The position numbers and the translations under genes are program-made. DNA of 64,000 bases from Geothrix sp. 21YS21S-4 (GTDB taxonomy: Bacteria > Acidobacteriota > Holophagae > Holophagales > Holophagaceae): contig NZ_CP132719.1 of NCBI RefSeq assembly GCF_030845995.1, positions 1,550,001-1,614,000 on the forward strand. The letters are read 5' to 3'. The notes beneath the pieces were generated by a model. It searched no databases, was not told where the DNA came from, and saw nothing but the letters and a program-made list of their open reading frames with translations. How positions within the stretch are numbered: the stretch's first letter is position 1; each line of letters opens with the position of its first letter. Below, one piece after another: positions 36,290 to 41,902 of the stretch.

Positions 36290-37006
36290 ATGGAGTTCGC
36301 ACCCATCAAAACCAGGCGCCTCTACGAGGAAATCGTGGAGCAGATCAAGCAGCTCATCACCGACGGCAAGTTGAAGCCCGGTGACAAGTTGCTCGCCGAG
36401 AGAGATTTGGCGGAACAGTTTCAAGTGAGTCGCGCCTCCGTGCGGGAGGCGATCCGCACGCTGGAGATGCTGGGCGTCATCGACATCCGCCCCGGCGAAG
36501 GCACCTTCGTGCGCGGCACCGAGACCGACGACATCATCCGTCCGCTGGCCATGTTCCTTGCGGTGGAGCGGAACTCGCTCCTCGACATGTTCGAGATGCG
36601 CCGCATCTTCGAGACCGCCACCGCCCGCCTTGCCGCCGAACGCGGCACCGAGGAGGAGCTGGACCAGATCAAAGCCATGCTGGAGAACATGCAGGACCGG
36701 CTGAACGTGCAGGATCCGGAAAAGGGCGAGGAATTCGACGCCGCCTTCCATTACGCCGTTGCGGAAGCCACCCACAACAGCCTGCTCATCAAGCTGTTCA
36801 AGACCGTCTCCGAGGAGTTCGCCAAAGCCAACTCCGTCGCCCGGCGCCAGCTGTACCACGACAACGTCGAGAACGCCCAGCTGATCATCGACCAGCATTC
36901 CGAGATCTTCGAAGCCATCCGCTCCCGCTCGTCCGAAGCCGCGTCCCAGGCCATGCTGGCGCACCTGATCTTCGCGGAGAACGAGCTGAGGAAGTGGATC
37001 GTTTAG
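36290..37006 (+). CDS. lldR: GntR/FadR-family regulator of lactate genes
   Basis: 238 residues. Winged helix at the N-terminus (GKLKPGDKLLAERDLAEQFQVSRASVREAI, then GTFVRG) and an all-helical FCD ligand domain (residues about 85-230) with its metal-site pattern (Asp/His residues in FHYAVAEATHN and DQHSEIFEAI). Close in type to LldR/PdhR, which release DNA on binding lactate or pyruvate. Divergent from the permease and next to the operator, so autoregulation and lactate control are likely. Start at ATG 36290; the ATG at 36286 is out of frame. Confidence 0.85.
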   Translation: MEFAPIKTRRLYEEIVEQIKQLITDGKLKPGDKLLAERDLAEQFQVSRASVREAIRTLEMLGVIDIRPGEGTFVRGTETDDIIRPLAMFLAVERNSLLDMFEMRRIFETATARLAAERGTEEELDQIKAMLENMQDRLNVQDPEKGEEFDAAFHYAVAEATHNSLLIKLFKTVSEEFAKANSVARRQLYHDNVENAQLIIDQHSEIFEAIRSRSSEAASQAMLAHLIFAENELRKWIV

Positions 37007-37010
37007 TGCG

Positions 37011-37041
37011 ACTGCCGAGCGTGTTTCCCACGCCCGGCAGT
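37011..37041. terminator. Stem-loop after the FadR-type regulator
   Basis: ACTGCCG-A-GCGTG (37011-37023) pairs with CACGC-C-CGGCAGT (37029-37041), 12 pairs with one A/C mismatch and a 5-base loop. It begins 5 bases after the stop. No T-run. Confidence 0.5.
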
Positions 37042-37504
37042 GGCCCGGTGGCTACTAAATAGCAAATTCAAAGTAGTGTAGATAAATAAGTTAAATCAAT
37101 ACATGATGGCGTGTTGCCCCCAAATCTGCCCCCGTCGCTACAGGTTAGCCATCGCCCATCTCCAAAAACGGGACCGAGCCGCCCTACCGTGGATGAAGAA
37201 CGGGTCCCAGTCGACGAAGCGGTGGACGCTGCCTGCACCGTGGTGGTACGGGGTGGGAATCTTATGATCGAGAGCGCTCTGGTCTGCGTGCCCTCGCCCA
37301 GCTATTCGGGGGATCCGGTGCCTGTGCCTAGCCGCCCACCCACCGTCCTGCCCTCCTCCTACCATGCAGACATCACAACTTCCCCACAAAGATCCTCTCC
37401 GGGAAGGCATACGCAACCCTCCGAATTGCGCGTAATGGGGACAAGGCCGAGAATCGTGAAGAGAGTCCTACCGGATTGCGGGCTGGAAAGGTAGAGGAGA
37501 CCGG
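37042..37504. other. Gene-poor stretch at the island edge
   Basis: It begins with an AT-rich pocket (about 37055-37105) and then turns into G/C-rich sequence. The only long frame (37111-37494, plus) gives a Pro/Ser-rich peptide with no recognisable domain or ribosome site, and I do not call it. AGAGGAG near 37493 belongs to the next gene. It may be the scar of an integrated element; I find no duplicated attachment site. Confidence 0.5.
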
Positions 37505-38209
37505 ATGGCTACAAACGGCGATTCACCACTACCCCACGGCCTGAAGAAGCTCGATCTGGGTGGTGCAGTCCTGGCCTTCCTGGGCGACAAGATTACCTTC
37601 AACCCCAAGAAATCCCACTACCACTACACCTTCCACTTTGGCCAGGTGACTAAGGTCATGGATGTCCATCGCACCCGACGGGTGAAAGGCGAACCAGAAG
37701 TCCATGAGACCCTTTTGAAGATCCCCTACGAGCGTCTGCCGACCTTCATCGAAGGTATGGGGCAGGAAATTCTGGACGCTTATTGGTCTGTGCTTCGCCC
37801 CCTACGTATCGGATGGATGGCGCGGAACCGAATTGGCGCGGAACCGGCCCTCTTTCCTTCTGAAACGGGATGGCCAGAGGTCACGTCTGCTCGAAAGGGG
37901 CGCCTACATATTGATGAAGAAAAGGTCGCCGCCCGAATGGGACAGCTGGAGTTCTTGGATGATCTGTACGACCTTCCCATGGGCCAATGCTTTTCGCTGA
38001 TCAGTTGCAGGAATCCTTACCGGTGGAAGACCTTCGGCTTCGGCATCCGGCTGGTAGGAAGACACGGGCAACCAAAGCTCTTCTGGTGTCCCTATCGGGC
38101 AATCAGTCGTCGGTTAAACCAGCTGGGCTCGAAGATGGAGGCCTTTATCTTGGCTCTACAGAAGTCTGGACCGGCCGACAACGATCACCCAGCATCTGTT
38201 ACGGTGTGA
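37505..38209 (+). CDS. Hypothetical protein of the island
   Basis: 234 residues, soluble, no signal peptide or membrane segment. It is rich in aromatic and basic residues (HYHYTFHFGQVTKVMDVHRT, WMARNRIG). Good ribosome site (AGAGGAG) before ATG 37505. I recognise no family. It stands alone on the plus strand between an AT-rich pocket and the IS3 element, so it is probably accessory. GC content is intermediate. Confidence 0.6.
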   Translation: MATNGDSPLPHGLKKLDLGGAVLAFLGDKITFNPKKSHYHYTFHFGQVTKVMDVHRTRRVKGEPEVHETLLKIPYERLPTFIEGMGQEILDAYWSVLRPLRIGWMARNRIGAEPALFPSETGWPEVTSARKGRLHIDEEKVAARMGQLEFLDDLYDLPMGQCFSLISCRNPYRWKTFGFGIRLVGRHGQPKLFWCPYRAISRRLNQLGSKMEAFILALQKSGPADNDHPASVTV

Positions 38210-38345
38210 CTCCGGTTAGCCCTGAATTTCTTTCGGGACACGCTTAATTCGCTCACCCCCGGTGGGGAATCGCCTGAAAGTATTTGAAACTCTGCTGTGA
38301 TGAATTACGCCCCCATTGGTAGTGTAATGACCCATCGAAAGCTGC

Positions 38346-39204
38346 TCAGGATGGGTTGTTAAGCAGGTAGGTCTGACGGGGGGTGTTCATGCCGAGGGCC
38401 TGGTGGGGCCTTTGGTGATTGTAGAAATGAATCCAGTCGCCGACGACGCGGGAGGCGTTCTGGAGGGTTTCGAATCGGTGGCGGTGGACGCACTGCTCCT
38501 TGAGGGTGCGGATGACGCGCTCGCAGAGGCCATTCTGCTCGGGGGTGTGGGGGGTGATGAATTCCTGGCGCAGGCCGTAACTGCGGACCAGGGCGGTGTA
38601 GCTGCGGGAGGTGAACACGAGGCCGTTGTCCGAGCGCAGGAGGAAGGGGTCAGCGACTCGGCCCAGGGTGCCGTATCGGGTGAGGAGGGCCTGCTCCAGG
38701 GCGGCCTCGGCGGTCCTGGACTTGCCGGAGCGGGAGAGGTGCCAGCCCAACAGCTCCCGGGTGCAGCAGTCGATGACGAGGGCGAGGACGGCCCATCCGT
38801 CCGGTCCAGATCCGGCAGAGGTCCGTGGCCCAGCGCTGGTCGGGCGCGGCGGCAATGGAGGGCTTGACCTCCACGCGAGGCCGGAATCCCACGGCGCGTT
38901 TCCGGACCTGCCATCCCATTTGCTGGAACACCCGCTGGACGGTGTTCTTGTTGAAGCCCAGGAGGTGGGCCACGGTGCGGTAGCCGTAGGAGGGCTCCCG
39001 CTCGATGAGCGCCTTGATCGGCTGGACGAATCGGTCCTGAAGGACGGGTGGCTTCCTCCGGGGCCGGTAGTACATCGTCCGCCGCGGCACCTCGAACCAT
39101 TCGCACAGGCGGCTGAGCGGGACGGAGAGCCCCTCGTCTTTCAGTCCCTGCCGGACCGAGGCGATCACCTCTCGTCCGCGCCCAGCAGGGACGCTGCTTT
39201 TTTT
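38346..39204 (-). pseudogene. IS3 transposase OrfB, interrupted by a frameshift
   Basis: The DDE integrase-core transposase is read from the slippery site (A7 at 39198-39204) through VIASVRQGLKDEGLSVPLSRLC, SYGYRTVAHLLGFNKNTVQRVF and DQRWATDLCRIWTG, then must change frame at about 38802 to continue DGWAVLALVIDCCTREL, LRSDNGLVF and NGLCERVIRTLK. The three catalytic acids (D in WATDL, D in RSDNG, E in LCERV) are all present but in two frames. One extra base, or two lost, explains it. Confidence 0.85.
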
Positions 39205-39479
39205 CGGGCGCGCAGCTCCAGCATCGCCTCGCCATAAGCCTCCTGGAGGCCCTTGAGCTGCCGCTCGTACTGCTCCTTCACGTCCAGGGGCTTGGCCCGG
39301 AGGGCGTTCTCCATCCCGCGCTTGCCATCCTCGATCCAGCCCTCGATCTCCGAGGGCGGAAGGTCGAAGGCCCGGCTGGTTTCCGCCACCGTCGTCTTCC
39401 CCTGGATGATCTCCATCACCAGCGCCGCCTTCCGGCGTGCCGTCCATCGTTTGATCTCGTCTTCCATTGCTCCACTCAT
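39165..39479 (-). CDS. IS3 transposase OrfA
   Basis: 104 residues with a helix-turn-helix (RRKAALVMEIIQGKTTVAET, FDLPPSEIEGWI) and a C-terminal leucine-zipper-like helix. It ends with ARKKAASLLGADER-stop just past the A7G slippery run (39198-39204). A -1 slip there would join it to OrfB as ...ARKK-SSVPAGRGREV. ATG 39479 with AAAGGAG upstream. Confidence 0.85.
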   Translation of the reverse strand: MSGAMEDEIKRWTARRKAALVMEIIQGKTTVAETSRAFDLPPSEIEGWIEDGKRGMENALRAKPLDVKEQYERQLKGLQEAYGEAMLELRARKKAASLLGADER

Positions 39480-39705
39480 GGGGTCTCCTTTGGAGTATCT
39501 CCTGAGCAGCTTTTCAGTGGGTCATTACATGACAGGCGAAACCGAGAAGCGAGAGGTGAGAAGGAAGGTATGCCATACATGCATGGGGAGAGTCGAACAG
39601 AGGTTGGGCAGTCGGGTTGAGAACTCGTGATGGCCGACGGAGAGAGGACGCAGTAATGTCTGAAATCAACTCGATTTTGTAATAATCTTCATGCAGGAGG
39701 AACGC

Positions 39706-39867
39706 ATGCCGGAAATTATGACCTGTGGTGCTTGCAGTGCAAAGTATGAAGTCGTAAAAAAGGATCTTCCATTCCGTGATCGCGACAGCATCGAGTGCGA
39801 TTGTGGAGAGGAGCTTCTTTCTTGGAATGGCGGTGTCTGCTACATCGCCATTCGTCTGAAAGATTGA
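39706..39867 (+). CDS. 53-residue zinc-ribbon-like protein
   Basis: A short gene with a strong ribosome site (GGAGGAACGC before ATG 39706). Cys7-x2-Cys10 in MTCGACSAKY and Cys31-x-Cys33 in IECDCGEELLSW form two knuckles of a zinc ribbon. Similar tiny ribbon proteins are found scattered in accessory DNA. Followed by a strong bidirectional hairpin. Function unknown; a nucleic-acid or protein adaptor is possible. Confidence 0.65.
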   Translation: MPEIMTCGACSAKYEVVKKDLPFRDRDSIECDCGEELLSWNGGVCYIAIRLKD

Positions 39868-39915
39868 TTGCCCAATAAATTAACGACTTACAAGGTTACC
39901 TGGGCTCCTCCTTGA

Positions 39916-39954
39916 GAAGGGCCACCCACTCATATTTTGAGTGGGTGGCCCTTC
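39916..39954. terminator. Bidirectional terminator, 17-bp perfect stem
   Basis: 39916-39932 pairs with 39938-39954 around TATTT. It lies between the convergent zinc-ribbon gene and the DUF4238-like gene. Confidence 0.85.
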
Positions 39955-39957
39955 GTT

Positions 39958-40929
39958 TCATTTAGGTGCAATTGGACAAACCTGTAGATCACGGCCTAAA
40001 TAATAGCGGTGACATGAAGAGTGAAGGTGTTTGTTGATTTTTCCGAGGGCTATCTTGGAAATTTTTGATAATTTTGAATTGCCAACTAATGCAATCTGCG
40101 GGTTCAGTGGGATAAATGGTTCTTCTGGTGGTGAATCAGGCACAATGAATTCACCGGCATCAGCCCGAACAATCATCCATTGATAACTTTCTAGATGGTC
40201 ACAAATACGATCAATGTGAGTTTGAATTTGAATTCCTGTCATTTGTCGCCCTGCGATCGTTAAATTCGACCTTGCGAAGACATAGCCATTCTTCTCCAAA
40301 CATTCTTCCTCATCTTTGGTCAATTCCCTTTCAACTCCTAGTGCATTCAATTTCACGTCTGGTAAAGGGTCCTTCTTAAAATGGGCTCGGCATTTCCACA
40401 GGGCAAAAAATCGAGTTGCCACCAAAGACGTATTCTCATCAAGGGAGCCCTGACGCGAAAAGATCACTTCACGAGCTAAGTCCTGAAATTCGTCTTCAAT
40501 CCCTCTCATATACCCTTTTTCTGCGCGTTCATCCCAAGCCCGTTCTGCACAAAAAAGAGAGTGACTTGACTCTAGATGTAAATATTTTTTTGAAGTAATT
40601 AATCGCACATGAAGCCTGCCATCTTTATTTGAAAAGCGATCGAGGCTAGCAACCGGAAATACATGCTGTCGTACTACCAGATGATGTGGATTTCCCTTTT
40701 GGGTCGGCTCGGGTTTCACGAAAGTCCTAACGAAGGAATCAACCCGGCCCCGCCAGCACCGAGGTGATAAGCGCAGTCGATAAGGCAAAACGTTAAGAGA
40801 GCGGAAAGTGATGAAGTCGGGGTTCGCGTTGAGCGGGGTGTAAGGCCCTGAATGCAGATCCAAGGGACTTTGTTCATCGCCATAGCTGTGCCCATGGATG
40901 GGAGACCTTCGGCAATTGAAGATTACCAA
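39958..40929 (-). CDS. DUF4238-like protein, partner of the HNH protein
   Basis: About 323 residues. HHLVVRQHVFPVASLDRFSNKDGRLHV, followed by SHSLFCAERAWDERAEKGYMRGIEDEF, resembles the start of DUF4238 proteins (a his-rich motif, a P-x-x-x-L-x-x-F block, then a helical part), which are common in defence islands; the match is tentative. The N-terminus is uncertain: the frame begins at a TTG (40929) and overlaps the end of the HNH gene by 56 bases, so a later TTG or GTG may be used. AT-rich relative to the chromosome. Confidence 0.5.
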   Translation of the reverse strand: MVIFNCRRSPIHGHSYGDEQSPLDLHSGPYTPLNANPDFITFRSLNVLPYRLRLSPRCWRGRVDSFVRTFVKPEPTQKGNPHHLVVRQHVFPVASLDRFSNKDGRLHVRLITSKKYLHLESSHSLFCAERAWDERAEKGYMRGIEDEFQDLAREVIFSRQGSLDENTSLVATRFFALWKCRAHFKKDPLPDVKLNALGVERELTKDEEECLEKNGYVFARSNLTIAGRQMTGIQIQTHIDRICDHLESYQWMIVRADAGEFIVPDSPPEEPFIPLNPQIALVGNSKLSKISKIALGKINKHLHSSCHRYYLGRDLQVCPIAPK

Positions 40930-41569
40930 TCCGAGAAATCAGTCGAAGCTGAGCAAAAATGCGGTGGTGAGATTGCCAGGAGGAGAGGATGGATTGGTCT
41001 TCGATTACTGCAACTGTGCCACCTTGTGAGCCGATTCGAACATTCAAAGGATTGATCTGGTTATTTAGGCAGAAATCAAAGAGGAGTCTATCAAAGGTCT
41101 GCGGGGGAGTGTGGTCTACTGCGTAATTTTGGCGAGTGATGATTTCATTAGTGTACGGGCAGATCAGGGGCTGCCGAAGCTCTCGGTCACGGAACTCATA
41201 AATCTGAGGATTAACTGCCTCGCGCGCGGCATTACGAAAATCGCGCAACGCTTGCGGGAGAAGGGCCATTGTTGTCGAGTTAGGAACAAGACGAATTGCA
41301 TGAGCAAAGGAAATATCGATCCGATCACCAGTCGATTTCTGAAGAACAAAGCAGCGAGTCCCTTGAATCGTTGTCTGAGTGGAAATCCCTGTTACACCTC
41401 CGCTTGATTTTTCCAGCCATTCATCATGGTATTGGAATAGTGTCATGAGAAATGGAACAGGGTCATCTGCAACGAACGTTGCATCAGGTGTTGCTCTAAG
41501 GATCTCTCGGCATCGTGCTGTAATGGCCTCTTTGGTTGCGAAAAGTTCCTCTGCGACCAGATACGGCAT
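40874..41569 (-). CDS. DUF3223-HNH protein, putative nuclease
   Basis: 231 residues from ATG 41569, chosen because GACAAGGAG lies 9 bases upstream. Residues 10-95 (KEAITARCREIL, PVPFLMTLFQYHDEWLEK, GTRCFVLQKSTGDRIDISF) fit DUF3223, a small domain found in putative restriction-type proteins. Residues 136-170 (LICPYTNEII, YAVDHTPPQTFDRLL) form an HNH-like site with D-H and a following Pro-Pro, close to other DUF3223-HNH proteins. Probably a DNA endonuclease with the downstream gene as partner. AT-rich island, tRNA-Ile2 upstream on the same strand. Confidence 0.6.
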   Translation of the reverse strand: MPYLVAEELFATKEAITARCREILRATPDATFVADDPVPFLMTLFQYHDEWLEKSSGGVTGISTQTTIQGTRCFVLQKSTGDRIDISFAHAIRLVPNSTTMALLPQALRDFRNAAREAVNPQIYEFRDRELRQPLICPYTNEIITRQNYAVDHTPPQTFDRLLFDFCLNNQINPLNVRIGSQGGTVAVIEDQSILSSWQSHHRIFAQLRLISRIGNLQLPKVSHPWAQLWR

Positions 41570-41591
41570 TGGATTGGTGCTCCTTGTCGGT

Positions 41592-41750
41592 CTAACTCTG
41601 TTCAAGTGGTACGTGGGGGCCTGAGGTCGCCTTCAGGCTTACATCCAGGACATGGACCATCAGCCTATGACGTATTTCGGAGGGGATCTGAGCCTCAAGG
41701 CGTGCTTTAAGCTCTCCTGGAGTAGCGGGCTTCTTCCGATCGGACCCCAT
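41592..41750 (-). CDS. Possible 52-residue ORF between tRNA-Ile2 and the HNH gene
   Basis: ATG 41750 to TAG at 41592, ending 22 bases before the HNH start. The product is basic at the N-terminus (MGSDRKKPATPGELKARLEA) and has the look of a small regulator or antitoxin-sized protein, but there is no clear ribosome site and no known motif. Proximity to the HNH gene suggests one operon if real. Confidence 0.35.
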   Translation of the reverse strand: MGSDRKKPATPGELKARLEAQIPSEIRHRLMVHVLDVSLKATSGPHVPLEQS

Positions 41751-41826
41751 GGGATCATCAATCGGGTCACACTTCAGTGTTTTCTAGGCTTTTTGGATGT
41801 TGTCGGATGTCACGGGATGTTGACTT

Positions 41827-41902
41827 GGTGGCCCCGGTGGGGTTCGAACCCACGACCAAGCGGTTATGAGCCGCCAGCTCTGACCGCTGAGCTACAGGGC
41901 CG
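41827..41902 (-). tRNA. tRNA-Ile2 (CAU anticodon, lysidine type)
   Basis: A 76-base cloverleaf with encoded CCA. Acceptor GGCCCTG / CGGGGCC, anticodon stem-loop GGCGG-CTCATAA-CCGCT, T-arm GTGGGTTCGAACCCCAC. The anticodon arm and GCTTGGTCG variable region match E. coli ileX-type tRNA-Ile2 rather than elongator Met. A TilS-type enzyme is needed to modify C34; none is in the window. Confidence 0.85.

Follow-up and report, generated by a model that had tools for sequence, protein, structure and literature searches.

The described systems closest to the locus reported here are a DUF4238 antiphage protein and the Hachiman type II system. DUF4238 proteins are found in P2-like prophage hotspots of E. 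coli, and a single such gene gives strong resistance to T7 (PMC9122126). DUF3223, in turn, is the HamC component of Hachiman type II (PADLOC; PMC8565338). A third relevant family is EruA, a NACHT antiphage protein represented by NCBIfam model NF058535, for which a literature search returned nothing. In a window of 64,000 nucleotides from Geothrix sp. 21YS21S-4, a DUF4238 gene (gene A), a DUF3223-HNH gene (gene B), and a 52-aa EruA-like remnant (ORF C) lie together in a small, horizontally acquired island. We consider it probable that this locus is what remains of a mobile mini defense island at a tRNA insertion hotspot, in which the DUF4238 gene is probably a solo one and the DUF3223-HNH gene an orphan. 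The most likely reading is an ordinary cluster of leftovers, not a new defense system.

The evidence for an island comes first from comparison with relatives. In three congeneric genomes (L083, L085, and L086), the end of a FadR-like gene (window positions 37002 to 37006) is joined to the tRNA across only ~48 bp, which stand where the island would be; positions 37007 to 41825 are therefore an insertion of 4.8 kb. Its edge is flush with the 3' end of a minus-strand tRNA with a CAT anticodon (41826 to 41901), which ARAGORN labels as Met and which is plausibly Ile2. As an earlier reading of the sequence had remarked, the region is AT-rich, with a GC fraction of ~0.42 to 0.51 against ~0.65 around it. 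Second, a sibling genome (G053; L082, 9465 to 14636) carries genes for a Tn7-like TnsAB fusion, TnsC, and TniQ, ending ~310 bp from the same tRNA, which suggests a tRNA-targeting Tn7-like element. Third, a search of 296 further genomes of the phylum turned up no copy of either A or B. The empty site, the Tn7-like element at the same tRNA, and this absence together argue for the island, although no second copy of a duplicated att site from tRNA integration was found in the window. The hotspot at this tRNA, which holds other elements in relatives, here holds a DUF4238 gene of divergent sequence and an orphan DUF3223-HNH gene. Also inside the island are an IS3-type transposase pair (38346 to 39479, minus strand; rve_3, E 2e-22; HTH_Tnp_1, E 6e-6) and a 234-aa ORF on the plus strand (37505 to 38209) with no Pfam or PHROG match.

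Reading away from the tRNA on the minus strand, the order is ORF C (41750 to 41592), gene B (41569 to 40874), and gene A (40719 to 39958). Gene A starts at the GTG at 40719, as evidenced by a Shine-Dalgarno site (AGGA) at 40728 to 40725 and by its homologues, which start at the same place, just ahead of a QKGNPH motif. The open frame of B extends to a TTG at 41605, and its start is the ATG at 41569, which has an AAGGAG Shine-Dalgarno site upstream and matches the MP-start of B relatives. With these starts, both genes are intact, A encoding 253 aa and B encoding 231 aa, with no overlap: the gap from C to B is 22 bp, and that from B to A is 154 bp. The preliminary description placed both ORFs correctly on one strand, here the minus strand, but reported overlapping genes because the longest possible frames had been taken; the corrected starts rule out an overlapping operon. 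The spacer from B to A (40720 to 40873) has no significant fold (z of +1.3 versus shuffles). An integron attC site, prompted by the sequence TCTTAAC...GTTAGGA in this spacer, was considered and rejected, its folding being no better than that of shuffled sequences.

ORF C (41592 to 41750, minus strand) matches only the last 37 positions (1282 to 1318) of the 1,318-position EruA model, with an E value of 2.3e-6. It aligns with the C-terminal ends of two proteins, from Agrobacterium and Phaeobacter, whose lengths are 1352 and 1371 aa and whose bit scores with that model are 876 and 1242, and it lacks the upstream segment that carries a nuclease-like LPVEAKRH motif in a Rhizobium relative. A whole-genome search with NF058535 returned ORF C as its only match (positions 1281 to 1318), so no other part of EruA was found. 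By these alignments, ORF C is the severed C-terminal tail of an EruA-type NACHT antiphage protein of ~1,350 residues, a remnant rather than a gene; unlike EruA, it is not full length, has no NACHT ATPase, and is not functional. The 52-residue ORF previously noted in front of the two genes thus exists, but it is not a third partner. In an Agrobacterium locus (L067, 4213 to 5845), an EruA-like gene is followed by a 250-aa gene of no assigned family and then by a Shedu SduA gene.

Gene A (39958 to 40719, minus strand) matches the DUF4238 profile PF14022 with an E value of 2.2e-7 and 31 bits, over the gathering cutoff of 27, which bears out the earlier assignment. H19, E75, and R111 of A are invariant residues. 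Its AlphaFold2 model has a mean pLDDT of 95.4. Comparison with the PDB gave no match (Foldseek, none below an E value of 1; VIA, Z of at most 3.2), which does not imply a new fold, and the model is similar to a protein from Stenotrophomonas phage Smp131 (probability 1.00). For the neighborhoods of A homologues, we compiled 59 homologous loci, of which 38 are in genomes, 12 on viral contigs, and 9 on plasmids; scans of the viral contigs with the single protein and with profile A1 returned nothing, and profile scans A3 and A5 gave matches. The homologues are mostly solitary, often in prophages, and at most 6 of the 59 share any one neighbor family, so that no recurrent partner emerges. Like the published DUF4238 solo system, A carries the domain and sits in a mobile island; it differs in belonging to a divergent subfamily and in having an HNH gene upstream. 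Considering the solitary homologues, the T7 resistance given by a solo DUF4238 gene, and the likeness to the Smp131 protein, A probably works alone, as does the P2-prophage protein against T7. By this analogy, its action would be antiphage, although at 31 bits A is so divergent that transfer of the T7 result to it is weak.

Gene B (40874 to 41569, minus strand) was likewise correctly recognized as a DUF3223 protein, as evidenced by a match to PF11523 (E 8.7e-8; 33 bits, over the cutoff of 21) and by its best match, PADLOC HamC2, along the whole length of B (E 9.4e-24). In the AlphaFold2 model (pLDDT of 90), the N-terminal domain matches the DUF3223 nuclear magnetic resonance structure 2K0M with a Z of 14.4 over 98 residues (root mean square deviation of 2.8), and the HNH-like C-terminal half matches the HNH nickase 4H9D weakly (Z of 4.0). 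The VDHTPPQTF motif reported earlier is present, and its D-H pair is conserved across most relatives; in the numbering of the alignments, which begins at the TTG of position 41605, most of them keep D164, H165, F171, and H214. On these features, B is a putative metal-dependent HNH-type nuclease. Other residues that are near-invariant in the family have changed in B, namely, H162 to A and, as read off the alignment by eye, R90 to K and D92 to T, so nuclease activity is likely but not certain.

The settings in which DUF3223-HNH genes occur are diverse. They are present on 38 viral contigs; the phage copies are solitary and lie near Prim-Pol, replication, and methyltransferase genes, and they are also solitary in Streptomyces plasmids. 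On four plasmids (L105, L106, L107, and L109) from Rhizobium, Agrobacterium, and Bartonella, a DUF3223-HNH gene directly follows hamAB, represented by DUF1837 and DEAD/DEAH genes. In three further loci (L102, L103, and L099), it overlaps or lies just after a gene for a Rad50/SMC-like AAA ATPase. The latter arrangement of ATPase and HNH genes is Septu-like, and the plasmid annotation does not use the Septu name.

These settings suggest that DUF3223-HNH is a modular nuclease that phages, Hachiman type II, and ATPase operons have in common, and a HamC match alone consequently does not denote Hachiman. B could nevertheless be an orphaned third gene of a Hachiman type II system, given that its best match is HamC2, that it shares with HamC both the 2K0M fold and the same HNH-like C-terminal half, and that DUF3223-HNH genes follow hamAB on the four plasmids. 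We regard this origin as highly improbable. There is no hamA or hamB among the island ORFs, a whole-genome search with PF08878, in which no positive control matched either, found nothing, and B falls outside the well-supported hamC clade. A phage origin has more in its favor: the nearest relatives of B by identity are viral (L129, 31%; L128, 29%), and in phages the gene has replication and methyltransferase genes around it. B might then be a free-standing HNH gene with no defense role that was caught in the island with A, which is compatible with the island itself and differs only in the role given to B. We view this as possible but on the unlikely side, since the neighbors of B here are defense genes and the domain has also been recruited to Hachiman and ATPase operons.

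Conserved linkage of the two genes in other genomes, on which the preliminary description had staked its defense pair or trio, was not found. On the A side, a DUF3223 gene lies within ~8 kb of an A homologue in one of the 59 loci (L051; G346, Pseudomonas sp. TH15), where the DUF3223-HNH gene is frameshifted and divergent from the adjoining DUF4238 gene. On the B side, a search for PF14022 in 60 DUF3223-bearing records found it adjacent in two, L051 and L096 (G451). In L096 (1839 to 3465), a DUF4238 gene (PF14022, E 4.5e-23) follows the DUF3223-HNH gene 107 bp downstream on the same strand, the same order as B and A in the window. A BrnT-like ORF is nearby, and the L096 contig ends inside the DUF3223 gene. 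Elsewhere, one Streptomyces plasmid has PF14022 roughly 100 kb from DUF3223, and DUF4238 genes of the L096 type gave six matches on plasmids, none in plasmids listed as carrying DUF3223.

Could A and B nonetheless form a two-gene system, with DUF4238 sensing infection and DUF3223-HNH as the nuclease effector, or the reverse? Among 398 sampled Pseudomonadota genomes, DUF3223 (PDLC00205) occurs in 4 (~1%), DUF4238 in 35 (~9%), and both in 1, against ~0.35 expected from these base rates. Co-occurrence within genomes is thus unremarkable, but adjacency at 107 bp is remarkable, and neighbors within a few hundred base pairs are unlikely under independence with uniform placement; the two genes adjoin in L096, L051, and the window. 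However, placement in defense islands is clustered, which accounts for such adjacency. Moreover, the DUF3223 proteins of L096 and L051 group together in the tree (support of 100/99), apart from window B, whose long branch falls among viral rows, and their DUF4238 partners belong to different subfamilies. These separate positions indicate that the adjacency in the window arose in a separate event, which fits defense-island clustering; convergent pairing is possible. With linkage so rare and the clades so distant, we judge a two-gene system quite improbable and would treat A and B as independent. What stands of the earlier proposal is its defense context: a family with solo anti-T7 activity, a HamC domain, and a NACHT tail.

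A broader form of the pairing would make DUF3223-HNH a plug-in nuclease that was coupled with DUF4238 proteins in two or more independent events to form a two-gene defense system. Such a pair would parallel the use of this nuclease after HamAB and after Rad50-like ATPases and is so far undescribed; we hold it to be distinctly improbable. If the recurrent adjacency proves functional, the DUF4238 defense mechanism gains a nuclease partner to test.

Under the leftover-island reading that we prefer, the island would have delivered at least three defense-type genes, namely, an EruA-like NACHT gene, DUF3223-HNH, and DUF4238, with the IS3 element alongside. The NACHT gene would then have been lost except for its last ~40 codons. 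A would act as a solo DUF4238 defense protein, and B may cut nucleic acid as a metal-dependent HNH-type nuclease, its DUF3223 domain contacting nucleic acid or a partner. B would be an interchangeable module, found elsewhere alone in phages, after hamAB, or after a Rad50-like ATPase.

Some smaller features complete the locus. A 58-aa cysteine-rich ORF of the island with sub-threshold zinc-ribbon matches (39691 to 39867, plus strand) is convergent with A, and between the two genes, downstream of A, lies a perfect 16-bp, terminator-like inverted repeat (39916 to 39954). Beside the 3' end of the tRNA, at 41780 to 41825, three imperfect GGATGT direct repeats may have served the lost element as binding sites for a recombinase or transposase.
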